A stretch of DNA of 35,155 nt from Clostridiales bacterium (GTDB taxonomy: Bacteria; Bacillota; Clostridia; Lachnospirales; Lachnospiraceae), in contig JAJQDO010000123.1 of assembly GCA_021202175.1 (NCBI GenBank), positions 1-35,155 of the forward strand, given 5' to 3'. The notes beneath the pieces are model-generated. The model saw only the letters and a list, made by a program, of their open reading frames with translations, ran no database searches and had not been told where the DNA came from. This document shows, in pieces, positions 9,237-34,987 of this stretch (the first letter of the stretch is position 1; every line of letters begins with the position of its first letter). A program made the position numbers and the translations under genes.

Positions 9237-9257
9237 GTCCTAAGAAATAAAAAACAG

Positions 9258-9383
9258 ATCTTCAGGGCAGGGTGTGATTCCCGACCGGCGGTAAGCGCAG
9301 ATTTTGATGCGTAAGCCCGCGAGCGTTATAGCATGATCCGGTGCGATTCCGGAGCCGACGGTACAGTCCGGATGGTAGAAGAT
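9258..9383 (+). ncRNA. FMN riboswitch (RFN element)
   Basis: ATCTTCAGGGCAGGGTGTGATTCCCGACCGGCGGTAAG...AAGCCCGCGAGCG...GATCCGGTGCGATTCCGGAGCCGACGGTACAGTCCGGATGGTAGAAGAT matches the canonical RFN consensus, including the closing ATCTTC/GAAGAT stem. Confidence 0.95.
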
Positions 9384-9432
9384 GAGTTTAGTGCACATTT
9401 TTGTGCGCGTCTTATTTATGTGGTAATCATGA

Positions 9433-9476: not shown

Positions 9477-9541
9477 ATACCTCATACGAACTCTGAAGAT
9501 TGCAGACTCTAACATTTATGCAGAAGAAAGGAGACAATGTT

Positions 9542-11086
9542 ATGGGCAGATATTATCTCGGGTTCGATGCAGGAACCCAAAGTGTGAAGGTAGCGGTATA
9601 TGATGAGAAGATGAATTGCGTGGTATCCTCCAGCGCGCCAACGACGCTGACCTATCCTCATCCGGGATGGGTAGCTATGGATTGTGACGAATATCTGGCT
9701 TTGGCGATTCAGGGGATGAGAAACTGCGCGCAGAAGATGCGGGAGCAGAATCTGGATCCGGCCGAAGTGCGATCCATCATGGGAGACGGCATCATCTGTG
9801 GTATCTGCGGGGTGGACGCGGATGGCAATGCCATCACACCGTATATCAATTATCTGGATTCCCGGACGGAAGAGGACGCACAGCTGATCAATAGCTGGAA
9901 CCTGGATATCTGGGGAAAAGAGACAGGAAACCCGGAAGCCAACTGTATGTTTCCAGCGCTGTTTGCACGCTGGTTTTTGAAGAATTCACCGGAATATCAG
10001 GAAAAGGGCGTGAAGTTTATTCACAATGCTCCATATATTTTAGCTCATCTGGCAGGACTGCGTGCGGAAGACATGTTTATCGACTGGGGCGCGATGTCCG
10101 GCTGGGGCATGGGTTATAAGGTGGAGGAAAAATGCTGGTCCAAAGAACAGCTGGAACTTTTAGGCATTCCAGAATCCATGATGCCGAAGATTGTGAAGCC
10201 ATGGGATGTGATCGGGTATCTTACCGAAGAGATCGCGGAGAAGACGGGATTCCCGGCGGGTATTCCTGTCTGCGGCGGAGCCGGGGACACGATGCAGTCC
10301 ATGATCGGCAGCGGTAATATGCAACCGGGTCAGGCGGTAGATGTGGCGGGAACCTGTTCCATGTTCTGCGTTTCCACCAGCGGCATTATTCCGGAACTTA
10401 GCCGAAAGGGAGCCGGACTGATTTTTAACAGCGGGACATTGCCGGATACCTATTTTTACTGGGGCTATATTCGTACAGGCGGCCTGGCGCTGCGCTGGTA
10501 TAAGGATAATATTTGCCGCCAGGAAGCAGATGGTGACTATTACCAGGTCTTGAGCGAGCAGGCATCTGCCATAGCACCAGGTTCGAACGGTGTGTTGTTC
10601 CTGCCGTATCTGACGGGCGGCACGAATGATATCAAGGATGCTTCCGGCTGTTTCCTGAACATGACGATGGATACCGACCAGGCTGTACTTTGGAGAGCTG
10701 TTCTGGAGGCCATCGGCTATGATTATATGGAGATTACAGATCTGTACCGTTCGGCAGGCATCGACCTCAGTCGCATCAGTATCACGGAAGGTGGAAGCCG
10801 GGATAAGCTCTGGAACCAGATGAAGGCGGATATGTTAGACAGCCGTACCGTTACCCTGGAAAATGCGGCGGGAGCCGTGATGACAAACTGCCTTTTCGGC
10901 GCCTACGCCGTGGGGGATATCACAGATATTAAGGGTGCGCTGACTGAGAATCTTCATATTAAAAATATATGTGAACCGAATGCGGAAAATCATGCATTTT
11001 ACCGAAAAATGTACGAGCTGAAGACTCGTCGGGTCAAAGAGGAATTGGCGCAGGCCTTCCGCACACTGAAGGAGATTCAGAGCTGA
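9542..11086 (+). CDS. FGGY-family carbohydrate kinase (xylulokinase-like)
   Basis: YYLGFDAGTQSVKVAVYDEKMN, GWVAMDCDEY, GGAGDTMQSMIGSG, VDVAGTCSMFCVSTS, ITEGGSRDKLWNQMKADML. RBS AAAGGAGA before ATG 9542 (ORF track start 9500 is upstream). Confidence 0.9.
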   Translation: MGRYYLGFDAGTQSVKVAVYDEKMNCVVSSSAPTTLTYPHPGWVAMDCDEYLALAIQGMRNCAQKMREQNLDPAEVRSIMGDGIICGICGVDADGNAITPYINYLDSRTEEDAQLINSWNLDIWGKETGNPEANCMFPALFARWFLKNSPEYQEKGVKFIHNAPYILAHLAGLRAEDMFIDWGAMSGWGMGYKVEEKCWSKEQLELLGIPESMMPKIVKPWDVIGYLTEEIAEKTGFPAGIPVCGGAGDTMQSMIGSGNMQPGQAVDVAGTCSMFCVSTSGIIPELSRKGAGLIFNSGTLPDTYFYWGYIRTGGLALRWYKDNICRQEADGDYYQVLSEQASAIAPGSNGVLFLPYLTGGTNDIKDASGCFLNMTMDTDQAVLWRAVLEAIGYDYMEITDLYRSAGIDLSRISITEGGSRDKLWNQMKADMLDSRTVTLENAAGAVMTNCLFGAYAVGDITDIKGALTENLHIKNICEPNAENHAFYRKMYELKTRRVKEELAQAFRTLKEIQS

Positions 11087-17463: not shown

Positions 17464-17499
17464 ACAGGAAAACAGATTCTTCTGTTTTCCTGTGTTTTT
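17464..17499 (+). terminator. Terminator-like hairpin between promoter and tRNA-Ser
   Basis: ACAGGAAAACAGA-ttct-TCTGTTTTCCTGT followed by GTTTTT; perfect 13-bp stem ending 6 nt before the tRNA. Confidence 0.75.
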
Positions 17500-17587
17500 G
17501 GAGATGTACCCAAGTGGCTGAAGGGTCCGCACTCGAAATGCGGTAGGTCGGGTAACCGGCGCGAGGGTTCAAATCCCTCCATTTCCG
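17500..17587 (+). tRNA. tRNA-Ser(CGA)
   Basis: Acceptor GGAGATG/CATTTCC, anticodon stem CCGCA/TGCGG with loop CTCGAAA, long variable arm, T-arm GAGGGTTCAAATCCCTC. Confidence 0.95.
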
Positions 17588-17592
17588 TAGAG

Positions 17593-17741: not shown

Positions 17742-20444
17742 ATGAAACAGATTTCAATTGGGATTCTGGCCCATGTGGATGCGGGAAAGACGACACTTTC
17801 CGAAGGGATTTTATATCTGACAGGCGGCCTGCGCAAGCTGGGACGGGTCGATCACGGAGATGCCTTCCTCGATAATTTCGCCCTGGAAAAGGACAGAGGC
17901 ATTACCATTTTTTCCAAACAGGCCTTGTTTACGCTGGGAGATACCGAGGTCACATTATTAGATACTCCAGGACATGTGGACTTCTCAGCAGAGATGGAGC
18001 GCTGCCTCTGGGTGATGGATTATGCGGTGCTCGTGGTGAGCGGCGCCGACGGGATTCAGGGACATACAGAGACCCTGTGGAGGCTTTTAAAGGCATATGG
18101 GATTCCTACATTCATTTTTATCAATAAGATGGATCAGGAAGGAACGAACAGAGAAGAACTACTGAAAGGATTGAAAAAGGATCTGGATGATGGATGCATT
18201 CCTTTTGACGGGACATTTGATGCGGAAACATATAGAGAAGAGCTTGCCATGTGCGATGAGACGGTTCTGGAAGCGTATATGGAAACTGGGAAGATCGCGG
18301 AGAAGGAGATCGTTCGGCTGGTTCGAGAACGTAAGGTTTTTCCGTGTTATTTCGGTTCTGCGCTGAAATTGACCGGAGTGGAACAGTTTCTCAAAGGATT
18401 GGAACAGTATACCATTATGCCGGATTATCCGAAAGAATTTGCAGCGAAGGTATTTAAGATTACCAGGGACGAACAGGGGAATCGACTGACTCATCTCAAG
18501 GTCACAGGCGGAAGACTCCGTGTAAAAACGTCTTTGGGAGAAGGAGAGAAAATTGACCAGATTCGTATTTATTCCGGCGCGAAATATCAGATGAAGGATG
18601 AAGTTGGGCCGGGTACGGTCTGTGCAGTGACTGGTCTGTCAGACACGGAGGCCGGTCAGGGAGTGGGAACAGAAGAATCCCTGCCTTCCTTTATACTGGA
18701 GCCGGTGATGAGCTGTCGGCTGATTTTCCCTGACGGGACAGACATGACCAAAGCCCTGCGGGAATTGAAGCAGCTGGAAGAAGAGGATCCAAAGCTGCAT
18801 ATCGTGTGGAACAGCCAGCTTTCAGAAGTGCAGATGCAGCTGATGGGTGAGGTGCAGACAGAGGTATTAAAACGTATCATCGCGGAACGTTTCCATATGC
18901 AGGTGGAGTTCGGACCGGGACATATCATGTATAAGGAGACGATTCGAAATACGGTAACCGGTGTGGGGCATTATGAGCCTCTCAGGCATTATGCGGAGGT
19001 TCATCTTAAAATGGAACCGGGAGATCCGGGAAGCGGATTGGTTTTTGACAGTATCTGCAGTGAAGATGTTCTGGATAAGAACTGGCAGCGGCTGATACTG
19101 ACCCACCTTGCGGAGAAAGAACACCTTGGCGTGCTGGCGGGTTGTCCTATCACGGATATGAAGATTACACTGACGGCAGGGAGAGCCCATCAGAAGCACA
19201 CCGAAGGAGGAGATTTCCGTCAGGCGACCTACCGGGCAGTTCGTCAGGGGTTGATGCAGGCACAATCCGTACTGTTGGAACCGTGGTATGCCTTTCGGCT
19301 GGAACTGCCTGCTGACCAGGTTGGCCGGGCGATGGCAGACGTGCAGGCGATGGCAGGATCCTTCGAGGTTCCGCAGATGGAAGGAGATCGGGCAGTGCTC
19401 TGTGGCAGCGCTCCGGTGTCTGAGATGATGGATTATCCGGCACAGGTACAGTCATACACCGGCGGCAGCGGTAGAATTCGTCTCCGAATGGATGGATACC
19501 GGCCCTGCCACAATGAAGAGGATGTTCTCAGCACGATGAACTATGACTGCGAAGGGGATGTGGATAATCCCTCCGGATCCGTCTTCTGTTCTCACGGGGT
19601 CGGATATTATGTGCCATGGGATCAGGTCGCGGAACATATGCATATCAAAGAGGATACGAGAAAAGGGATTCATCAGAGCGATTTGACAACTGGAACTTTT
19701 TCCGGCGGGAGTGATGTATCTTCCGTTGCTGGTTCCATTTCCCATGGGAGTGATGCATCCGCTTTTGCTGAAGATAAAGAACTGGAAGAGATTTTCATAC
19801 GGGAAGTTGGCAGTAAAAAACAGCAGGAGGATCGTTACAGCAGTTACCGAAAGCCTGCGGCTGTGCCCGCGCGAGAAGAGGCACCGGATATTTCTTTCCG
19901 ACGAAAAGATAACGAAAAGCAATACCTTCTTGTGGATGGTTATAATATCATTTTCGCCTGGGATACGTTAAAGGAGTTGCCGGAGGTGAATCTGGAAGCG
20001 GCAAGAAACGAGCTGATGGATATCCTCTGCAATTATCAGGGATTCACCGGTTATACCGTCATTGTCGTGTTTGACGCTTATAAGGTCAAGGGAAATCCGG
20101 GAGAGATTTTCCGTTATCATAACATCCATGTGGTATATACGAAAGAGGCGGAGACGGCCGACCAGTATATTGAGAAAACCACCCATGAACTGGGACGCAA
20201 ATATCAGGTGACGGTGGCAACCTCCGATTCTCTGGAACAGGTCATCGTTATGGGTCAGGGAGCCAGAAGAATTGCTGCCTCCGATTTTCTGGAAGAAGTT
20301 TGCCGGGCAGAGAAAGAGATTCGCAGAATCAATGAGATACGCAGACAAAAAGGACGTAATTATCTTTTTGACCATATGGATAAGGATATGGCGCAGAGAA
20401 TGGAAGATATACGATTGGGAAAAGCGGAGTTTCCAGATTCTTGA
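17742..20444 (+). CDS. Tet(M)-like/EF-G-like translational GTPase fused to C-terminal NYN (YacP/Rae1-like) RNase domain
   Basis: G-motifs AHVDAGKTT, KDRGITI, DTPGHVDF, NKMD; Tet-like C-terminus NPSGSVFCSHGVGYYVPWDQVAEHMHI; then linker and NEKQYLLVDGYNIIFAW...VIVVFDAYKVKG...EAETADQYIEKTTHELG...VATSDSLEQVIVMGQGARRIAASDFLEEV (NYN/YacP). Confidence 0.9.
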   Translation: MKQISIGILAHVDAGKTTLSEGILYLTGGLRKLGRVDHGDAFLDNFALEKDRGITIFSKQALFTLGDTEVTLLDTPGHVDFSAEMERCLWVMDYAVLVVSGADGIQGHTETLWRLLKAYGIPTFIFINKMDQEGTNREELLKGLKKDLDDGCIPFDGTFDAETYREELAMCDETVLEAYMETGKIAEKEIVRLVRERKVFPCYFGSALKLTGVEQFLKGLEQYTIMPDYPKEFAAKVFKITRDEQGNRLTHLKVTGGRLRVKTSLGEGEKIDQIRIYSGAKYQMKDEVGPGTVCAVTGLSDTEAGQGVGTEESLPSFILEPVMSCRLIFPDGTDMTKALRELKQLEEEDPKLHIVWNSQLSEVQMQLMGEVQTEVLKRIIAERFHMQVEFGPGHIMYKETIRNTVTGVGHYEPLRHYAEVHLKMEPGDPGSGLVFDSICSEDVLDKNWQRLILTHLAEKEHLGVLAGCPITDMKITLTAGRAHQKHTEGGDFRQATYRAVRQGLMQAQSVLLEPWYAFRLELPADQVGRAMADVQAMAGSFEVPQMEGDRAVLCGSAPVSEMMDYPAQVQSYTGGSGRIRLRMDGYRPCHNEEDVLSTMNYDCEGDVDNPSGSVFCSHGVGYYVPWDQVAEHMHIKEDTRKGIHQSDLTTGTFSGGSDVSSVAGSISHGSDASAFAEDKELEEIFIREVGSKKQQEDRYSSYRKPAAVPAREEAPDISFRRKDNEKQYLLVDGYNIIFAWDTLKELPEVNLEAARNELMDILCNYQGFTGYTVIVVFDAYKVKGNPGEIFRYHNIHVVYTKEAETADQYIEKTTHELGRKYQVTVATSDSLEQVIVMGQGARRIAASDFLEEVCRAEKEIRRINEIRRQKGRNYLFDHMDKDMAQRMEDIRLGKAEFPDS

Positions 20445-20565: not shown

Positions 20566-20838
20566 ATGAGACAATGCATGGATGCCAAAAATCTTCACCA
20601 GCGGCTGAGCCGAATCAGTGGCCAGATCAATGCCATTGATCGGATGGTAGATGAGGATGTTCCCTGCGAGGATATTTTGATTCAGGTCAATGCGGCAAAG
20701 TCAGCCCTTCATAAAGTGGGGCAGATTATTTTGGAAGGCCATTTGAACCATTGTGTGAGAGATGGCATCGAAAATGGGGATGCGGAGAAGACCATAGCGG
20801 ATTTTGCACGGGCGGTAGAGTATTTTTCCAGGTTATAG
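20566..20838 (+). CDS. CsoR/FrmR-family (DUF156) metal- or thiol-sensing repressor
   Basis: LHQRLSRISGQINAIDRMVDEDVPCEDILIQVNAAKSALHKVGQIILEGHLNHCV with C...H-x3-C pattern; RBS GGGAGG. Confidence 0.85.
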   Translation: MRQCMDAKNLHQRLSRISGQINAIDRMVDEDVPCEDILIQVNAAKSALHKVGQIILEGHLNHCVRDGIENGDAEKTIADFARAVEYFSRL

Positions 20839-25657: not shown

Positions 25658-26119
25658 ATGTTTGTAGTATTCTTTTTGTTTTGGGTTTTGCTTAATGGAC
25701 GATGGACGATAGAAATCGCGATTTTCGGCATCGTGATCGCCGGAGCTATGTACGCGTTTATCTGTCGTTTTATGGATTACAGTATCAGGAAGGATCTGCG
25801 GGTGATCAGAAAAATACCGCTCAGTATAGTATATTGCGCGGTGCTGATCCGGGAGATCGTGAAAGCGAATCTGGCGATGCTTCCTTATATTTTTTCCGCG
25901 AAGATTATGCCGGAACCGAAGCTTGTCAGGTTTCAGACGGAGCTAAAGACACATACAGCACAGATGATCCTGGCGAATTCTATCACCTTGACTCCGGGAA
26001 CGATCACGGTGGAGATGGATGATGGACATTATCTGGTACATTGTTTTGATAAATCCATGGGTGAGGGATTGGATTCCTCTGTATTTGTAAAATGGCTGAA
26101 AAGACTGGAGGAGGAATAA
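25658..26119 (+). CDS. MrpE/MnhE-like (MbhA-like) subunit
   Basis: RKIPLSIVYCAVLIREIVKANLAMLPYIFS...SITLTPGTITVEMDDGHYLVHCFD. Confidence 0.9.
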   Translation: MFVVFFLFWVLLNGRWTIEIAIFGIVIAGAMYAFICRFMDYSIRKDLRVIRKIPLSIVYCAVLIREIVKANLAMLPYIFSAKIMPEPKLVRFQTELKTHTAQMILANSITLTPGTITVEMDDGHYLVHCFDKSMGEGLDSSVFVKWLKRLEEE

Positions 26120-26120
26120 T

Positions 26121-26462
26121 ATGACGACGGATTACAGTGCTTTTTTTCTGGGCTGCGTGATCGTGCTGGCTGTGCTGGCATTCTTCTGTCTCGTGCGGAC
26201 GATACGGGGTCCCAAGCTGGCGGATCGTATCATGGGAACGAATATGATCGGCACCATTACCATTGCGATTATTCTTCTTTTGTCTGTTTATCTGGATGAG
26301 ACCAGCGTTTTGGATATCGCGTTGATTTACGCCATCATGAGTTTTGTTGCCGTAATCGTACTGACGAAGATTTATATCGGACTTTATAGAGAATACAAAG
26401 AGGAACATTTACAGGAAGACCATGTAACCGAAAGGCAGGAGGAGAAAAAAGATGAGCATTAA
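26121..26462 (+). CDS. MrpF/MnhF-like (MbhB-like) subunit
   Basis: RTIRGPKLADRIMGTNMIGTITIAIILLLSVYLDETSVLDIALIYAIMSFVAVIVLTK. Confidence 0.9.
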   Translation: MTTDYSAFFLGCVIVLAVLAFFCLVRTIRGPKLADRIMGTNMIGTITIAIILLLSVYLDETSVLDIALIYAIMSFVAVIVLTKIYIGLYREYKEEHLQEDHVTERQEEKKDEH

Positions 26463-26778
26463 CGTGGTACAATTTGTGATCGCGGCGATTTTTATCGTAG
26501 CAGGAATTATCATTACGGCCATACAGACCTTTGCGGTATTTCGTTTTGATTATGTGCTGAATCGTATGCATGGCGCGGCGATGGGTGATTCGTTGGGGAT
26601 ACTGCTGATTATTGCCGGTCTGCTGGTGATTTACGGTATATCGTTTGCATCTTTGAAGTTGATCGCCATCATCGTGGTGTTCTGGTTTGCCTCTCCGGTT
26701 TGCAGTCATTTGTTGTCGAAACTGGAAGTGAATACGAATGAACATCTGGAGGAAGAATGCGAGGTGCCGGAAGAATGA
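26452..26778 (+). CDS. MrpG/MnhG-like (MbhC-like) subunit
   Basis: FRFDYVLNRMHGAAMGDSLGILLIIAGLLV...SPVCSHLLSK. Confidence 0.85.
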   Translation: MSINVVQFVIAAIFIVAGIIITAIQTFAVFRFDYVLNRMHGAAMGDSLGILLIIAGLLVIYGISFASLKLIAIIVVFWFASPVCSHLLSKLEVNTNEHLEEECEVPEE

Positions 26779-27056
26779 CGATATTAAGAATTATATTACT
26801 TACGATTTTGATTATCTGCGCGATTGCCGTCAGTGCTTCGAAGAATCTTCTGACGTCGATCGTCATCTATATGGCTTTCAGCCTGATCATGTCTATTGTC
26901 TGGCTGATTCTGGAATCTCCTGATCTCGCGATCACGGAGGCGGCTGTGGGAGCTGGTGTGACCAGTATCCTTTTCTTTGTTACTCTGAAAAAGATACATT
27001 CGATCCGCACGACGGCAGAGGAGGAAAAAGATGAGCAAACGGAATCCGAAGTATGA
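26775..27056 (+). CDS. MbhD/DUF4040-like subunit
   Basis: ASKNLLTSIVIYMAFSLIMSIVWLILESPDLAITEAAVGAGVTSILFFVTL; ATGA overlap with the preceding gene. Confidence 0.9.
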   Translation: MTILRIILLTILIICAIAVSASKNLLTSIVIYMAFSLIMSIVWLILESPDLAITEAAVGAGVTSILFFVTLKKIHSIRTTAEEEKDEQTESEV

Positions 27057-27576
27057 GAATAGTTTTTGGCAGCATTTTGTGCAGTGGGTTCAGGGAACCC
27101 ATGATCCTGTGGAAGGTAAGTTGGAGACAAAGGTTCGAGATAAAGAATTCTTTGGGGATGAAAAGATTCATTATATTAATCTCCATATCCAGAATGTTGC
27201 GGAATATGATGAAAGCCGTTTTGAGGAAGGCATGGCAAAAAGAGTGAACGCATACACGAAGTTTTCAAGAGTAATGTCTGTTATCCTGGCTATCTTTATG
27301 ATCGGCATCCTGTTCTGGACAGTTCGCTACCTGCCGCAGTTTGGTGATCCGAATGCGCCGGAGAACAATGAAGTGGCTACAAGGTATATCGAAAGCGGTC
27401 TGGAGGAAACCGGGGCTGTCAATATCGTGGCCGGCATGATATTGGATTACCGTGCGTTTGATACTTTTGGTGAGTCCTGTGTGCTTTTTGTGGCTTCCTG
27501 TTGTGTGCTGATCCTTTTGCGTGTGGATACGGCAGAGGATCAGCATTCGAGAGCACTGGAAGATATGTATGACTGA
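27031..27576 (+). CDS. MbhE-like subunit (MrpA C-terminal-domain homologue) with N-terminal soluble extension
   Basis: YLPQFGDPNAPENNEVATRYIESGLEETGAVNIVAGMILDYRAFDTFGESCVLFVA. Confidence 0.85.
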   Translation: MSKRNPKYENSFWQHFVQWVQGTHDPVEGKLETKVRDKEFFGDEKIHYINLHIQNVAEYDESRFEEGMAKRVNAYTKFSRVMSVILAIFMIGILFWTVRYLPQFGDPNAPENNEVATRYIESGLEETGAVNIVAGMILDYRAFDTFGESCVLFVASCCVLILLRVDTAEDQHSRALEDMYD

Positions 27577-27603
27577 AACTATGAACCGAAAAACGATACG
27601 ATT

Positions 27604-28008
27604 TTGCAATACGCGGCAAGATTTCTTGTGCCATTGATCATCATATTTGGCATTTACGTGGTGCTGAACGGACATATTTCGCCGGGCGGCGGTTTTTCCG
27701 GCGGCGCGATCATCGGGTCTGGTCTGATTTTATACCTGACGGCTTTTGACTTTGAGAAGACCAGTCGTTTTATGAATGAGCGGGTGGTGAAAACTCTGAC
27801 TGTCTGTGCGCTGACTTTCTATTGTTTTGCCAAGAGTTACTCCTTTTATACGGGAGCGAATGGACTGGAAAGCATTATTACGCCGGGTACGCCAGGCAGG
27901 ATCTTGAGTGCCGGACTGATCGTTTATCTGAATATCTGTGTCGGCATCGTTGTGGCCTGTACCATGTATTCTTTTTATACATTATTCAGAAAAGGGGGTA
28001 TTTCATAA
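27604..28008 (+). CDS. MrpB/MnhB-like (MbhF-like) subunit; start codon region anomalous (possible 1-nt deletion)
   Basis: LQYAARFLVPLIIIFGIYVVLNGHISPGGGFSGGAIIGSGLIL...ITPGTPGRILSAGLIVYLNICVG; track start at 27604 is TTG with no SD. Confidence 0.85.
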   Translation: MQYAARFLVPLIIIFGIYVVLNGHISPGGGFSGGAIIGSGLILYLTAFDFEKTSRFMNERVVKTLTVCALTFYCFAKSYSFYTGANGLESIITPGTPGRILSAGLIVYLNICVGIVVACTMYSFYTLFRKGGIS

Positions 28009-28009
28009 A

Positions 28010-28381
28010 ATGGGCTCGTTTCTGACAAATTATGAAGAAGTGGCGGCAGTGATTCTGTTTGTGATTGGTATGAGTAATCTGCTTTTGCAGCCGAATCTGA
28101 TGAAGAAGATCATCGGACTGGATGTCATGGATGCGGCCATCTATCTCTTCCTTGCGTCCAAAGGGTATATCGAGGGCAGGACGGCCCCGATTTATGTGGA
28201 TGGCATTATGGATGCGGAACATTATATCAATCCGATTCCGGCCGGCCTGGTATTGACTGGAATCGTTGTGTCTGTCAGCGTCAGTGCATTGATGATGGCA
28301 TTGACGATAAACCTTTATCGTGAATACCATACGCTGAATCTGGATGAGATCATGATGAAGATCGGCAAGGAGGAAGAGTAG
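28010..28381 (+). CDS. MrpC/MnhC-like (NuoK-like, MbhG-like) subunit
   Basis: VAAVILFVIGMSNLLLQPNLMKKIIGLDVMDAAIYLFL...DPIPAGL-type NPIPAGLVLTGIVVSVSVSALMMALTI. Confidence 0.9.
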   Translation: MGSFLTNYEEVAAVILFVIGMSNLLLQPNLMKKIIGLDVMDAAIYLFLASKGYIEGRTAPIYVDGIMDAEHYINPIPAGLVLTGIVVSVSVSALMMALTINLYREYHTLNLDEIMMKIGKEEE

Positions 28382-29875
28382 ATGACGCTGGTTCAGAATT
28401 TCCCTTTTTTCTGTATTATCTTGTCCATGTTTTCTACCATTATCTCCTTTGTGTTAAATGGCAGGGCAGCGAAATACGTGCATGTTGCCATGGTGACGAT
28501 CGTCCTGGTTCTTTCCCTGGCTACCCTATCCTTTGTATGGGGAACGGGGGAGAGTTATACCTTTTCCATGGGACATTATCCCGCTCCGTGGGGCAATGAG
28601 ATCCGAATCGGTGTGCTGGAAACACTGATGGCAGCTTTTTTTGCCTTGATTATGCTGTTGTCTGTCTTTGGTGGTATGGCACATCTTGATAGAGAGATAC
28701 AGAATTCGAAAAAGAATTTGTTTTATATATTGATGGATCTGCTGATGGCATCTTTGCTGGCACTGGTCTACACCAATGGCCTGTTTACGGCTTATGTATT
28801 TATCGAGATCAACACGATAGCGGCCTGTGGCCTGATTATGATTAAAAAACAGGGACGGACCTATGTTTCTGCCGTCCGCTATATGGTTATGAGCCTGGTA
28901 GGTTCCGGTTTGTTTTTGATTGGCCTTACTCTTTTATACAGCATTACCGGACAGCTGTTGATGTCTCCGGCTAAGGAGGCGCTGGAGGAGATTATCGCCA
29001 CCAATAGTTATCATGTGCCATTGGTCATTATCATGATTTTGATTACCGTCGGGTTGGGAATCAAGAGCGGCCTGTATCCGTTTCATACATGGATTCCGGA
29101 TGCTTATGGATATACGACGCCTGCGGCCAGCGCGATTTTATCCTCACTGGTTTCCAAAGGGTACATCTTTTTGCTGATTAAGATATTTTACCGGGTTTTG
29201 GATTTGGAATCCCTCATCAGCAATCACCTGATCAATATTTTGTTTGTTTTTGGAATCATTGGTATGATTATGGGTTCCCTGGACGCTATCCGTCAGAATA
29301 ATATCCGCAGGATGACGGCTTTTTCGTCCGTCGCGCAGATTGGTTATATTTACATGGGAATGGGGATTGGCACTACGGCAGGAATGGTTGCGGCGGTGTT
29401 TCACCTGATTTCCCATGGTGCCACCAAATCTCTGCTGTTTATCAGTATTTCCGGACTGACTGAGGTGTCGGAAGACCGGGTGGATTTTCATTCTCTGCGG
29501 GGCGCCGGCTTTCGCAATAAGATTGCCGGAGTGGCTTATACCGTGGGCGCTATGTCCATGATCGGCATTCCGCTGTTTGCCGGTTTCGTTTCCAAGTACC
29601 TGTTTGCTTCGGCGGCGATGACGGCCGGTCATAAAACGTTGGTTGCCTGGATTGTTCTGGCAATCAGTACAGTGTTAAATACGATATATTTTATGCGGAC
29701 AGTGCTGACGATATATCACCCTGTACCGAAAGAAGAGAGACAACCGCATGGGATGATGCCTTCGAGGATCGAAACGGCGGCTGCAATCGGCATGATCGCG
29801 TTAAATATAGGATTGGGCGTTGCTTCTACGCCGGTGATTCGGGCGATTGAAACGGGCCTGGCGATGTTCGGGTGA
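28382..29875 (+). CDS. Antiporter-type subunit 1 (MrpD/MbhH/NuoN-like)
   Basis: FIEINTIAACG, GIKSGLYPFHTWIPDAYGYTTPAASAILSSLVSKGYIF, FHLISHGATKSLLF, GIPLFAGFVSKY. Confidence 0.9.
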   Translation: MTLVQNFPFFCIILSMFSTIISFVLNGRAAKYVHVAMVTIVLVLSLATLSFVWGTGESYTFSMGHYPAPWGNEIRIGVLETLMAAFFALIMLLSVFGGMAHLDREIQNSKKNLFYILMDLLMASLLALVYTNGLFTAYVFIEINTIAACGLIMIKKQGRTYVSAVRYMVMSLVGSGLFLIGLTLLYSITGQLLMSPAKEALEEIIATNSYHVPLVIIMILITVGLGIKSGLYPFHTWIPDAYGYTTPAASAILSSLVSKGYIFLLIKIFYRVLDLESLISNHLINILFVFGIIGMIMGSLDAIRQNNIRRMTAFSSVAQIGYIYMGMGIGTTAGMVAAVFHLISHGATKSLLFISISGLTEVSEDRVDFHSLRGAGFRNKIAGVAYTVGAMSMIGIPLFAGFVSKYLFASAAMTAGHKTLVAWIVLAISTVLNTIYFMRTVLTIYHPVPKEERQPHGMMPSRIETAAAIGMIALNIGLGVASTPVIRAIETGLAMFG

Positions 29876-29889
29876 TGGAGGTGTAGAAA

Positions 29890-31362
29890 ATGGAAGTGAA
29901 TAATTATTTTCTGTTGTTGCCAGTACTGTTGCCGATTATCGCGGGAATACTGCTGATGGTTTTGCCACGGAAAAAGAGAAAGCACATGCTGGTATATGTG
30001 GGCATTGTTCTAGTCGTCGATCTGCTTTTGACGATCTGGATCATGTTGCTGCCGGAGAAAGCCTCCTCGCTGGAGTTATTGACGATCATGGAAGGAATGA
30101 AGATTTATTTTCATGTGGATACGATTTCCCGGATTTTTGTCTTGCTGGTGGCATTTATGTGGCTGATGGCGGGCCTGGCAGCTTTTGAATATATGGTTCA
30201 TGAAAAAAATGAGGCGCGATTTTACTGCTTTTATCTGATTGTTGGCGGTGTGCTGTCGGCTCTGTGCTTTGCGGGTAATTTACTGACTTTATATATATTT
30301 TACGAGCTGATGACCTTAACTTCCATGCCTTTGGTCATGCATTCTCAGGACCATGGAGCGATTATGGCAGGACTGAAATACCTGTTTTATTCCATGGGCG
30401 GTGCACTTCTGGTATTATTTGGCCTGCTTTTGTTTCTGGCAGAAGGAAATGATCTGGTATTTACCGCAGGCGGTGTCTTGCAGGGGGAGACTTCTGCCAT
30501 CCGAATGGTGGCCTTATTTTTGATGATACTGGGCTTTGGCACTAAGGCCGGTATGTTTCCGATGCATGGATGGCTGCCGACAGCTCATCCGGTGGCGCCG
30601 GCTCCGGCAAGCGCGGTTTTGTCAGGCGTGATTACCAAAGCAGGTGTGCTGGGAATCATCCGCACAGTGTTTTTTATCGCGGGTGCGGATATGATTCGCG
30701 GAACCTGGGTGCAGTATCTTTGGATCCTGTTCAGCTTGGTTACGATATTTATGGGTTCTATGCTTGCTTATAGTGAAAAGGTGCTTAAGAAGCGTCTGGC
30801 CTACTCGACTGTCAGCCAGGTCTCTTATATATTGTTTGGCTTATCTGTACTCCATCCGACGGCTTTTATCGGGGCTATCATGCATGTGGTCTTCCACTCT
30901 CTGGTGAAGAATACGCTCTTTATTTCCGCCGGCGCCATTATCTATAAGACAGGTCGAACAAAGGTGGACGAACTCACTGGAATTGGAAAGGAGATGCCTG
31001 TGACGATGTGGTGTTTTACGCTGGTATCATTGACGTTGGTGGGCATTCCACCTACCAGTGCTTTTGTCAGTAAATGGTATCTGGCCATCGGCGCCATGGA
31101 GTCCGGGGTTTTGGTATCCTCCTGGTTAGGACCGATTATCCTTCTGGTCAGTGCTCTTTTAACGGCAGGGTATCTGCTGACGATTTCCATCAAAGGCTTT
31201 CTGCCAGGAGCGGATTATGATTATACCGCTCTTAAAAAGAAGGAACCAGGATGGATGATGCTTGTCCCGATGGTTACCCTCACTGCGCTGGCTGTTGTTT
31301 TTGGCATCTGGCCGACGGGGTTGATGAATCTGATCAATGATGTGGCAGTAGCCGTATTTTAG
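29890..31362 (+). CDS. Antiporter-type subunit 2 (MrpD/NuoM-like)
   Basis: FYELMTLTSMPLV, GFGTKAGMFPMHGWLPTAHPVAPAPASAVLSGVITKAGVLG, FHSLVKNTLFISAG, SAFVSKW. Confidence 0.9.
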   Translation: MEVNNYFLLLPVLLPIIAGILLMVLPRKKRKHMLVYVGIVLVVDLLLTIWIMLLPEKASSLELLTIMEGMKIYFHVDTISRIFVLLVAFMWLMAGLAAFEYMVHEKNEARFYCFYLIVGGVLSALCFAGNLLTLYIFYELMTLTSMPLVMHSQDHGAIMAGLKYLFYSMGGALLVLFGLLLFLAEGNDLVFTAGGVLQGETSAIRMVALFLMILGFGTKAGMFPMHGWLPTAHPVAPAPASAVLSGVITKAGVLGIIRTVFFIAGADMIRGTWVQYLWILFSLVTIFMGSMLAYSEKVLKKRLAYSTVSQVSYILFGLSVLHPTAFIGAIMHVVFHSLVKNTLFISAGAIIYKTGRTKVDELTGIGKEMPVTMWCFTLVSLTLVGIPPTSAFVSKWYLAIGAMESGVLVSSWLGPIILLVSALLTAGYLLTISIKGFLPGADYDYTALKKKEPGWMMLVPMVTLTALAVVFGIWPTGLMNLINDVAVAVF

Positions 31363-31375
31363 GAAGGAGGAGCGT

Positions 31376-32851
31376 ATGAAATCCTGGTTTATTCTTGTAC
31401 CGATCCTGCTTCCGATCCTGGCAGGAATCTTATTATTAGCATTTCCAATTGAGGACCAGAAAAAGAGGAATATCTGTATCGAGATCGTTGTTTTGCTCAA
31501 CACGGTCCTCACCTTTTGGCTTTTGCTTCACAGACCGGAACAGAGACTGTATTTGTTTTCTATTACGAATAATATGCCGTTAACTTTGCATATCGATGGC
31601 CTGTCCATGCTGTTTGGGGGACTGGTGGCATTTCTCTGGCCACTGGCTTCTCTGTACGCTTTCGAGTATATGCGCCATGAGGAGCGGGTGAATACCTTTA
31701 TGGCCTTTTATACGATTACGTATGGCGTGACGCTGGGCGTTGCTTTTTCGGGCAATATCGTCACGATGTATCTGTTTTATGAGATGTTGACCCTGGTTAC
31801 TTTACCATTGGTCATCCATACCATGACGAAAGAAGCCTGGAAGGCTGCCAGAAAGTATTTGTACTATATGATCGGTGGGACTGCGTTTGCCTTTATCGGC
31901 ATTGTTTTTTATTCGTTGTATTGTAATGGTAATGAATTTATTTTGGGAGGAAATCTGAATCTTTCCGATTTAGACGGAAATATGACGATCGTATTGATTG
32001 TGTATGTCCTGGCGTTTTACGGATTTGGCGTGAAGGCAGCGGTATTTCCATTCCATGGATGGCTGCCCTCGGCATCGGTAGCTCCCACGCCGGTCACTGC
32101 TCTGCTTCATGCGGTGGCTGTAGTAAAAGCGGGCGTGTTCGCCATCATGCGGCTTACGTATTACTGTTTTGGACCGACAGTGTTAAAAGGGACCTGGGCT
32201 CAGACGGTTGTGGTGACGGTTGCTATCGTAACGATCATTTATGGCTCTACCATGGGTGTGCGTGAGACGCATTTTAAGCGCAGGCTGGCTTATTCTACGA
32301 TCAGTAATCTGTCCTATATCCTGCTGGGCGTCACGATGATGTCTACCCTTGGATTGGTGGCCGGTCTATGCCACATGTTCGTTCACGCGATCATGAAGAT
32401 CAGCGGATTCTTCTGCGCGGGCGCCGTGATGCATCAGACGGATAAAAATTATATTTATGAGTTAGATGGCCTGGGCTATGCCATGCCGTTAACCTTTACC
32501 GCTCTGTTGATTTCCGGATTATCCTTGACAGGTGTGCCGCTGTTTGCCGGATTTGTCAGCAAGTGGAGCATTGTGGAGGCTTTGTTTCATCATGAATCGA
32601 TGATTGCTTATATCGGACTGGCTGCATTGCTGTATTCGGCGCTCATGACCGGTATCTATATGTTGCCGATTGCGGTTCGCGCATGGTTTCCGCGCAATGG
32701 CTATCATAAGGATCAGGTCAAGGGGTTTACCGATCCGAATTGGATGATGAAAGTGCCATTGTTCATATTTTCTGTAATTACTGTCGGAATCGGCTTGTAT
32801 GCGCAGCCACTTTATCATTTTATCGAAAACATCGCCACGGGCGTATTGTGA
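31376..32851 (+). CDS. Antiporter-type subunit 3 (complex I subunit 5/NuoM-like)
   Basis: FYEMLTLVTLPLV, GFGVKAAVFPFHGWLPSASVAPTPVTALLHAVAVVKAGVF, HAIMKISGFFCAG, GVPLFAGFVSKW. Confidence 0.9.
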   Translation: MKSWFILVPILLPILAGILLLAFPIEDQKKRNICIEIVVLLNTVLTFWLLLHRPEQRLYLFSITNNMPLTLHIDGLSMLFGGLVAFLWPLASLYAFEYMRHEERVNTFMAFYTITYGVTLGVAFSGNIVTMYLFYEMLTLVTLPLVIHTMTKEAWKAARKYLYYMIGGTAFAFIGIVFYSLYCNGNEFILGGNLNLSDLDGNMTIVLIVYVLAFYGFGVKAAVFPFHGWLPSASVAPTPVTALLHAVAVVKAGVFAIMRLTYYCFGPTVLKGTWAQTVVVTVAIVTIIYGSTMGVRETHFKRRLAYSTISNLSYILLGVTMMSTLGLVAGLCHMFVHAIMKISGFFCAGAVMHQTDKNYIYELDGLGYAMPLTFTALLISGLSLTGVPLFAGFVSKWSIVEALFHHESMIAYIGLAALLYSALMTGIYMLPIAVRAWFPRNGYHKDQVKGFTDPNWMMKVPLFIFSVITVGIGLYAQPLYHFIENIATGVL

Positions 32852-32866
32852 GAAGGAGGGCTATCT

Positions 32867-34987
32867 ATGATTGGTAATGCTATACTTTTACTCTTGGTTG
32901 CTGGCCCCATGGCTGCAGGCGTCATTGACTATGGAATCGGCCGTTTCAATAAAACGGCCAGGGATTATTTCGCGAATGCCGTGACCGTTCTTGAATTTCT
33001 GGTTATGGCAGTTTTCCTGCTGACTTACAGCAGTGGTCAGGAGATTACTTTATCCCTTCCGGGAGTCTGCGGGATGGGTCTGTCTTTTTGCCTGGACGGA
33101 TTTCGCACGATTTTTGCTGTAGTGACAGCCTTTATGTGGATGATGACGACGTTGTTCTCCAGAGAATATCTCGCGCATGCCAGAAACCGGAATCGGTATT
33201 ATCTTTTTATGCTGATCACTCTCGGCGCGACCATGGGTGTATTCCTGTCGGATGATCTGTTTACGACCTTTGTGTTTTTTGAGATTATGTCGCTGGCCTC
33301 CTATGTCTGCGTGGTTCACGATGAGAAAGAAGAGACGATGCACGCCGGGGGAGTTTATCTGGCGGTAGCCATTCTTGGCGGCCTGGTTGCGTTGATGGGC
33401 ATCTATATGCTTTATTATAAAGCAGGAACCTTGCAGTTTAATGAATTGTTGTCTGCCTGCGAACCATTGTTTGCCGAGAACAGTCGCTGGTTCTATATAT
33501 GTGGTGGCTGCATTCTGTTTGGGTTTGGCGCCAAAGCGGGCATGTATCCGCTTCATGTCTGGCTGCCGATGGCCCACCCGGTGGCGCCGGCGCCGGCCAG
33601 CGCCCTCTTATCCGGAATCATTACCAAATCCGGTATTTTTGGCGTACTTCTCATCAGCACCCGCATTTTTCTGCATGACGGATACTGGGGATTTACGTTG
33701 TTGATTTTTGGGATCGTTACGGCATTCCTTGGCGGTATGCTGGCAGTGTTTTCCATGGATTTGAAACGGACGCTGGCCTGCTCTTCGATGTCTCAGCTGG
33801 GATTTATCTTCATGGGCATTGGCATGCAGGGGCTTCTGGGAGAGGAAAATGCGCTGGCCGTCAGAGGGACGATTTTACACATGTTTAATCACTCGAATTT
33901 AAAGCTCGTACTGTTTATGGCGGCCGGCGTGGTGGTCATGAATCTTCACAAACTGAATCTCAATGATATCCGTGGTTTTGGCCGAAAGAAGCCGTTACTG
34001 CTCTATGTTTTCCTGATGGGATCTCTGGGAATCGGCGGGATTCCGCTATTTAACGGCTATATCAGCAAGACATTGATTCACGAAAGCATCGTGGAATATA
34101 TCGAACTTCTGGAAGAAGGCGGCGGAGCTCTGACCTTTGCCCTGGCTTCCGGACAGAGCGCAGTGACATTGTTTCGGACGATAGAGATTCTCTTTATCGT
34201 GACCGGAGCGATGACGGTCGCCTATATGACAAAACTGTTTGTTGTCTTATTTGTGGAGAAAAATAATGACCCCGTGATTCAGAAGTCTTTTGAGGAAAAG
34301 AAACCGTACTGCAATAAGACGACGGCAGTGGTTCTGGGAGTATCGGCGACGGTGCTTCCGATTCTTGGTCTGTTCCCGGGATTGACACTGGATAGGCTGG
34401 CAGACATGGGACAGAGTTTTTTGTACGGAGAATCACCGGCCCACGCAGTGCATTATTTTTCCTGGACGAATTTAAAGGGCGGACTGTACTCTATCGTGAT
34501 CGGTGCCCTGATCTACCTGATCGTGATTCGTGGATGGATGCGCGTCAAAGAAAAGAATGGCGCTGTTATCTATGTGGGCCGGTGGCCGAAGTCCCTTGAT
34601 TTGCTGCGGCTGATCTACGAGCCGGTGGTGATGAAACTGCTGCCGCTGATCGCAACCTTTGTATGCAGGTGTATGGAGTATGTCACGGATGGGATCATCC
34701 TGTTGGCAAGAAAGACGACGCACCGTCAGTTACATGGAGAAAAGATTGCTCCGACTGGCTATTGGAGAGCGTTGGTATTTGGCCGGATGTTAAATGGTAT
34801 TTTCTTCCTGCTGAACAAGACGATTCTCAAAAACCGACCATATAAAAGAGATTTTGTGCTGCGATTCGCGGAGAGAGAACACATTGTCAAGGTAAGTAAC
34901 AGTGAGATTATGGCCAGTGTGTCGTTTAGTTTATTAATGTTCGGTATAGGAATCATGATTGTCGTATTTTTCGCTTTTCTTTCCTGA
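32867..34987 (+). CDS. Antiporter-type subunit 4 (NuoL/HyfB-like, 706 aa with long C-terminal extension)
   Basis: FFEIMSLASYVCV, GFGAKAGMYPLHVWLPMAHPVAPAPASALLSGIITKSGIFG, LHMFNHSNLKLVLFMAAG, GIPLFNGYISK; about 200-aa C-terminal tail with amphipathic/TM segments. Confidence 0.9.
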   Translation: MIGNAILLLLVAGPMAAGVIDYGIGRFNKTARDYFANAVTVLEFLVMAVFLLTYSSGQEITLSLPGVCGMGLSFCLDGFRTIFAVVTAFMWMMTTLFSREYLAHARNRNRYYLFMLITLGATMGVFLSDDLFTTFVFFEIMSLASYVCVVHDEKEETMHAGGVYLAVAILGGLVALMGIYMLYYKAGTLQFNELLSACEPLFAENSRWFYICGGCILFGFGAKAGMYPLHVWLPMAHPVAPAPASALLSGIITKSGIFGVLLISTRIFLHDGYWGFTLLIFGIVTAFLGGMLAVFSMDLKRTLACSSMSQLGFIFMGIGMQGLLGEENALAVRGTILHMFNHSNLKLVLFMAAGVVVMNLHKLNLNDIRGFGRKKPLLLYVFLMGSLGIGGIPLFNGYISKTLIHESIVEYIELLEEGGGALTFALASGQSAVTLFRTIEILFIVTGAMTVAYMTKLFVVLFVEKNNDPVIQKSFEEKKPYCNKTTAVVLGVSATVLPILGLFPGLTLDRLADMGQSFLYGESPAHAVHYFSWTNLKGGLYSIVIGALIYLIVIRGWMRVKEKNGAVIYVGRWPKSLDLLRLIYEPVVMKLLPLIATFVCRCMEYVTDGIILLARKTTHRQLHGEKIAPTGYWRALVFGRMLNGIFFLLNKTILKNRPYKRDFVLRFAEREHIVKVSNSEIMASVSFSLLMFGIGIMIVVFFAFLS

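Follow-up and report, generated by a model that had tools for sequence, protein, structure and literature searches.

EF-G and the Tet proteins insert domain IV into the A site and decoding centre of the ribosome. In RPPs, Pro509 of the tip loop YYSPVST overlaps or displaces tetracycline at the drug site (PMC7456112, PMC8161019). Rae1 is a translation-dependent mRNA nuclease acting in the A site of stalled ribosomes (PMC6613710, PMC10100781). An architecture that joins a Tet protein to an RNase was reported in ten Clostridiales species by Atkinson 2015 (PMC4342817), where a novel resistance mechanism was suggested. No functional study after Atkinson 2015 was found in the open literature, and fusions of this kind may already figure in Condon 2018, which surveyed where Rae1 occurs. 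The architecture itself is already known; its reading as a clostridial Rae1, with replacement in progress, was not found described.

A gene of this kind lies in the 35,155-nt stretch of DNA analysed here (the window). The ORF listing of the window contains one 900-aa ORF at 17742-20444 (+), with an ATG start and no break, in agreement with the uninterrupted frame given in the preliminary description. Its features are as follows.

17742..20444 (+), whole fusion gene, 900 aa, translational GTPase plus Rae1/YacP NYN nuclease (ORF, Pfam, genome search)
17742..18410 (+), G domain, aa 1-223, with P-loop AHVDAGKTT, switch I RGITI, DTPGH, and NKMD (Pfam GTP_EFTU; invariance among relatives)
18438..18914 (+), EF-G domains II (aa 233-306) and III (aa 320-391) (Pfam)
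18921..19265 (+), EF-G domain IV, aa 394-508 (Pfam)
19179..19220 (+), domain IV tip loop GRAHQKHTEGGDFR, aa 480-493, with K485 at the position of Tet(M) Pro509 (alignment)
19269..19517 (+), EF-G domain V, aa 510-592 (Pfam)
19518..19643 (+), family-specific C-terminal segment, aa 593-634, ending in NPSGSVFCSHGVGYYVPWDQVAEHMH (alignment)
19644..19922 (+), flexible linker, aa 635-727, pLDDT mostly below 50 (alignment, AlphaFold model)
19779..19811 (+), fusion-specific conserved linker helix, aa 680-690, consensus ELxxIFxRTYG (alignment; modelled helix 674-689)
19923..20414 (+), NYN_YacP/Rae1 nuclease domain, aa 728-891, with acids D732, D778, D807, E811, and D829 (Pfam, structure relatives, alignment)

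Pfam assigned GTP_EFTU to aa 4-223, EF-G_D2 to 233-306, EFG_III to 320-391, EFG_IV to 394-508, EFG_C to 510-592, and NYN_YacP to 729-891 (E 9.3e-55, 186 bits against a cut-off of 24.6, profile positions 1-165 of 166). The NYN domain had been predicted to start at about nt 19911, close to its start at about nt 19923. In the AlphaFold model (57 relatives; pLDDT 81, pTM 0.61), an EF-G fold extends to about residue 634; then come a disordered linker, in which residues 674-689 form a single helix, and, from about residue 725, a folded NYN domain. The model does not fix where the NYN domain lies with respect to the GTPase. A Foldseek search matched the GTPase part of the model to EF-G (E 2e-51). The nearest solved relatives of the GTPase part were Tet(O), EF-G, and Tet(M), with Tet(O) the closest over the whole length. 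A fusion created by a frameshift or by faulty assembly was ruled out, because frames of ca. 900 aa carrying the domain recur in many genera (most of the positive genera listed for the window's family, and many other families of the class), the fusion form being found across hundreds of genera of Clostridia.

The GTPase part belongs to the EF-G superfamily: the G motifs, the catalytic His of DTPGH, and domains II-V are all present. The four motifs pointed out in the preliminary description (AHVDAGKTT, RGITI, DTPGH, and NKMD) were invariant or nearly so among 57 relatives, and alignments of relatives indicated that the GTPase motifs, the tip loop, and the C-terminal segment are strongly constrained. 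The description of the GTPase as Tet(M)-like was not supported. The best NCBIfam model was tet_protect, whose cut-off of 775 bits was not reached by the fusion (416 bits), while the controls Tet(O) and Tet(Q) scored 851 and 975 bits. In the GTPase tree, the RPP clade (support 98) and the family of the fusion GTPase (support 96) formed separate long branches; the deepest joins are uncertain, since this was a quick tree with long branches. The tip of domain IV differs as well. H483, K485, and H486 were found in 43 of 43 fusions at the position occupied by SPVST in Tet(O/W/S/Q); every fusion carries His, Lys, His, and Thr at the tip, with Lys at the Pro509 position, followed by GGDFR. This tip loop is mostly common to unfused relatives of the GTPase too. 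The RefSeq names of some fusion members refer to the TetM/TetW/TetO/TetS family. One such label, that of a TetM/TetW/TetO/TetS resistance protein, is attached to a fusion copy on an Agathobacter rectalis plasmid (L181 2980-5781), in contrast to the window homologue, which lies far under the NCBI resistance cut-offs.

The segment NPSGSVFCSHGVGYYVPWDQVAEHMHI, previously taken for a Tet(M)-type C-terminal domain, had no counterpart in the aligned sequences of Tet(O), Tet(W), Tet(S), Tet(Q), OtrA, and EF-G. Being specific to the GTPase family of the fusion, it is a marker of that family, and the C-terminal segment (aa 593-634) is also present in the unfused GTPase relatives. The linker that follows had been called Ser/Gly-rich, which is correct for the window protein and incorrect for the family, where linkers are rich in E, K, R, and S. 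Family linkers are 70-147 aa long, charged, and mostly disordered, with a single conserved helix-like motif, ELxxIFxRTYG, which was found in neither the unfused GTPases nor the stand-alone Rae1 proteins.

For the NYN part, B. subtilis Rae1 (5mq9, 5mq8; E 1.7e-29) was the only solved relative matched with confidence. The acidic motifs named in the preliminary description were borne out by the full-length NYN_YacP match and by alignment with the Rae1 structures, in which VDGYN, VVFDA, ETAD, and ATSD of the fusion have their counterparts. Acids corresponding to Rae1 D7, D53, D81, E85, and D104 were kept in 43 of 43 fusions and 25 of 25 stand-alone proteins, so the catalytic residues, whose loss on alignment had been considered, are intact throughout. 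Arg at Rae1 position 118 was present in all 25 stand-alone proteins and missing from about half of the fusions; docking of the fused NYN domain may therefore differ from that of stand-alone Rae1.

The distribution of the two forms was surveyed in samples of the window's family (298 genomes), order, class, and phylum. A YacP domain was found in 263 of the 298 family genomes, in a frame of ca. 900 aa in most of the matches listed. In the order, class, and phylum samples, nearly every positive genome encoded either a fusion of ca. 850-1000 aa or a stand-alone protein of ca. 170-230 aa, a few frames of intermediate length being assigned to neither form. The class sample contained 54 genomes with the fusion (one in a short frame), 44 with the stand-alone gene, and none with both (Fisher p 1e-11, a value that is overstated because related genomes are not independent and kinship was uncorrected). 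The same exclusive pattern was observed in the order, phylum, and family samples, and both intact forms occurred together in one genome only, G535 of the order sample. Genomes with several matches were examined as possible exceptions: those in the family were contig splits, duplicates, or sub-threshold matches, and the second matches of G476 and G451 turned out to be remnants of rae1, not intact genes. Named carriers of the fusion include Mediterraneibacter, Anaerostipes, Agathobacter, Hungatella, Monoglobus, Anaerovorax, and Desulfosporosinus. A second YacP domain was sought throughout the window genome and none was found. Thus, the question raised in the preliminary description of whether a stand-alone rae1 is absent elsewhere in this genome can be answered affirmatively, and the same was true across the class samples.

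Within the window's family, the presence of the GTPase goes with that of the nuclease. It occurred once per genome in the 237 genomes passing the threshold, with one contig-split exception, and was fused in almost all of those listed. Where rae1 was separate, an unfused GTPase was found in eight of ten such family genomes, and all ten nuclease-free genomes tested had no GTPase either. One genome with stand-alone rae1, G437, carries two unfused GTPase copies (L154, L155). Outside the family, the GTPase was absent from 13 of the 15 tested genomes with stand-alone rae1; Rae1 can therefore work alone, and B. subtilis Rae1 does work without a GTPase of the fusion type.

Stand-alone rae1 occupies a conserved position. 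In most of 20 neighbourhoods the gene order was cysS-mrnC-(thyX)-rlmB-rae1-sigH (gene names here were read from sequences, not from the output of an annotation tool). In none of 21 neighbourhoods did the fusion lie in the cysS-mrnC-rlmB-sigH locus, and no conserved operon partner or neighbour of the fusion was observed across these 21. The mrnC locus was then examined in twelve fusion genomes, that of the window included. Both mrnC and rlmB were kept in all twelve, sigH came after rlmB in eight, and rlmB and sigH overlapped or abutted in G191, G102, G206, and G180. An intact rae1 was found at the mrnC-rlmB locus in none of the twelve, and in the window genome no rae1-like sequence follows rlmB.

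Decayed copies of rae1 were recognizable in four fusion genomes. Genus g322, which provides the decisive case, contains a genome with rae1 and no fusion (G347) and two with the fusion (G319 and G412). The 533-nt gap between rlmB and sigH of G319 was 68% identical over 477 nt to rae1 of G347 (blastn E 2e-44) and was full of stops and frame shifts. In G408, what is left of rae1 in this slot is shorter (E 1.6e-6); G476 has a broken copy there (E 9e-40), and G451 an N-terminal stub (E 1e-10). Since these four genomes belong to four different families, the remnants indicate repeated loss of rae1 once the fusion had been gained, an outcome to be expected if the fusion takes over the function of rae1. 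The G476 remnant was closest to the intact rae1 of its congener G535, in which an intact stand-alone rae1 accompanies a fusion whose frame is cut at the contig start (L172, G535:C101). G535 has 5% contamination; because its congener has the fusion together with a broken rae1 closest to its own, it may be a genuine transition state rather than a product of contamination.

A tree built from 68 NYN domains set the 43 fused ones together on one side of a branch with support of 98/91, and the stand-alone genes of the window's family adjoined the fused group. The idea that these same-family genes are split-off fusions was unsupported, since none of them falls within the fused NYN branch. The fusions formed one clade in the GTPase tree (support 100), which includes three unfused genes, one from a Ligilactobacillus salivarius megaplasmid and two from contigs of a viral collection. 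Comparison of these sequences shows that the fusion was formed once. Members of families f8, f20, f21, f25, f59, f72, f75, Anaerovorax, and Desulfosporosinus formed a tight group in the GTPase tree, and such a group across many families points to horizontal spread. A mobile resistance gene was rejected as a general explanation, most of the fusion being present in only 2 of 72,556 plasmid records, both large replicons.

Neither of the two viral-contig matches contained the nuclease. These IMG/VR contigs, L151 and L152 (1-2178), start exactly at the start codon of an unfused copy, which carries an insertion after domain IV; this copy is probably a gene of the host bordering a prophage. The unfused gene of the L. 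salivarius megaplasmid (L178 3529-5920) is divergent from, and beside, rpsN (S14) and a putative metal homeostasis gene, a context hinting at a connection with the ribosome when metals are limiting.

In the window, a tRNA-Ser(CGA) gene at 17499-17588 (+) ends ca. 150 nt short of the fusion gene, with a strong hairpin and a T-run immediately before it; an Rfam search upstream of the fusion gave no attenuator, only the tRNA-Ser. A gene for a CsoR/RicR-type metal-sensing repressor (20566-20838, +) follows the fusion by ca. 120 nt, with no obvious adjoining metal target. Elsewhere, an FMN riboswitch (9254-9387, +; 110 bits) lies directly 5' of an FGGY-type sugar kinase ORF (9500-11086, +), an unusual target for such a riboswitch; the kinase reaches no NCBI equivalog cut-off. 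A run of Mrp/MBH-type antiporter subunits, one of them MbhE-like and at least three of them large Proton_antipo_M proteins, occupies 25658-34987 (+).

The replacement of stand-alone rae1 by the fusion in many Clostridia is well supported by these comparisons, and since the fusion displaced the stand-alone gene, the fused NYN domain is very probably the only Rae1 that these cells have. We consider it probable that the fusion is the clostridial Rae1, an A-site mRNA nuclease of paused ribosomes that relies on a ribosome-binding GTPase of its own for delivery or gating. By analogy with its relatives, the protein would bind ribosomes, hydrolyze GTP, and cut mRNA in the A site, and we infer a GTP-gated mechanism in which GTPase and RNase act in a coupled manner on one ribosome. 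In its GTP form, the GTPase would dock on ribosomes that have paused and whose A site is therefore vacant; domain IV would extend into the decoding centre, as it does in EF-G and Tet(M). Hydrolysis of GTP would pull domain IV out, and the nuclease, on its tether of 70-147 residues, would enter the A site and cut the mRNA there; the cut message would be cleared and the ribosome rescued. Recruitment to the ribosome, or the timing of the cut, would thus be the contribution of the GTPase, a help that B. subtilis Rae1 does without. Sequential action is argued because domain IV and the Rae1 domain would clash in the A site, and the order of events is a guess, since the two would compete for this same site. 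More tentatively, and at somewhat less than even confidence, the fusion may be a one-chain mRNA surveillance system, in which the GTPase probes for ribosomes whose A site is empty and, by hydrolyzing GTP, licenses the tethered nuclease to cut the mRNA in that site. In logic, this would be a bacterial counterpart of the Hbs1-Dom34 pair with an A-site nuclease.

The strongest rival, which we regard as unlikely, is that the chain combines two independent functions, a GTPase with work of its own, like that of the unfused relatives, and a NYN domain acting as an ordinary Rae1, the tether doing no more than raising the local concentration of the latter. Unfused GTPases do occur without a neighbouring rae1, stand-alone Rae1 occurs without the GTPase, and the two parts are joined by a long linker that is for the most part disordered; however, the fusion arose once and was kept in very many lineages, its specific linker helix is conserved, and in the window's family the GTPase is paired with the nuclease once per genome. 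A role in rRNA or tRNA maturation, with the NYN domain trimming rRNA and the GTPase serving as an assembly or quality-control factor, is distinctly improbable. Such a role was proposed early on for YacP, as cited by Atkinson 2015 (PMC4342817). It would fit the ancestral position of rae1 beside rlmB, for a 23S methyltransferase, and mrnC, for Mini-III, as well as the placement of yacO (rlmB) and rae1 in one pathway in B. subtilis (PMC6613710). Against this stand the reported action of B. subtilis Rae1 as a translation-dependent mRNA nuclease, the constrained domain IV tip, whose His and Lys suggest a role in the A site, and the absence of the fusion from the rlmB locus.

We give the least credence to the suggestion of Atkinson 2015 that the protein is an RPP with an added RNase, conferring resistance by a new route. 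Tet(O) as the closest whole-length solved relative, tet_protect as the best NCBIfam model, and the RefSeq labels of some members agree with it, but the score of 416 bits is far from the cut-off of 775 that Tet(O) and Tet(Q) exceed, the clade is separate from the RPPs, and the YYSPVST loop is absent, with Lys replacing Pro509 in 43 of 43 fusions. Moreover, a gene that is near-universal and single-copy in a family, and that displaces rae1, is unlike an acquired resistance gene. Plain tetracycline resistance is thus an unlikely role for the fusion, as the preliminary description had proposed, and ribosome-linked mRNA decay is likely.

In a lineage where Rae1 always comes joined to an EF-G-like GTPase, that GTPase is a likely partner activity for Rae1, and recognition of paused ribosomes becomes directly testable. 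Because the fusion is near-universal in a dominant gut family, it may set the response of these bacteria to ribosome stalling and to ribosome-targeting drugs. The tetracycline-resistance labels that RefSeq attaches to some fusion members can inflate resistance counts in gut metagenomes.

Among known systems, the RPPs Tet(M) and Tet(O) share with the fusion an EF-G-like five-domain GTPase with the same domain order (~30% identity); the fusion differs from them in lacking the Pro509-containing loop, in its position under the NCBI cut-off and in a separate clade, and in having segment 593-634 and the nuclease, both absent from Tet(M) and Tet(O). EF-G and its paralogues, e.g., Bacteroides EF-G2 (PDB 8dmf), have the fold and G motifs in common with the fusion, and its domain IV tip His aligns with a His of EF-G, but identity is only ~21-25%, the tip loop is different, and the C-terminal segment and nuclease are extra. 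The unfused relatives, such as the "translation factor GTPase family protein" of the L. salivarius megaplasmid (L178), are 39-50% identical to the fusion. Most have the same C-terminal segment, and the tip loop is mostly the same; they stop right after the MH motif and have neither the linker nor the nuclease. B. subtilis Rae1/YacP (PDB 5mq8, 5mq9; Leroy 2017, cited in PMC6613710) belongs, like the fused domain, to the NYN_YacP family and has all the active-site acids. Each is the sole YacP domain of its genome, the fusion being almost mutually exclusive with stand-alone rae1. Rae1 is a protein of ~170 aa, whereas its counterpart here is the C-terminal domain of a 900-aa GTPase that is encoded outside the rlmB-sigH operon, has an extra linker helix, and has relaxed one Arg conserved in stand-alone proteins. 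Finally, the clostridial Tet proteins with a YacP-like NYN domain of Atkinson 2015 have the same architecture as the window fusion. They were read as resistance proteins with an acquired RNase; the replacement of Rae1, and the evidence from distribution, tip loop, and pseudogenes, do not form part of that account.
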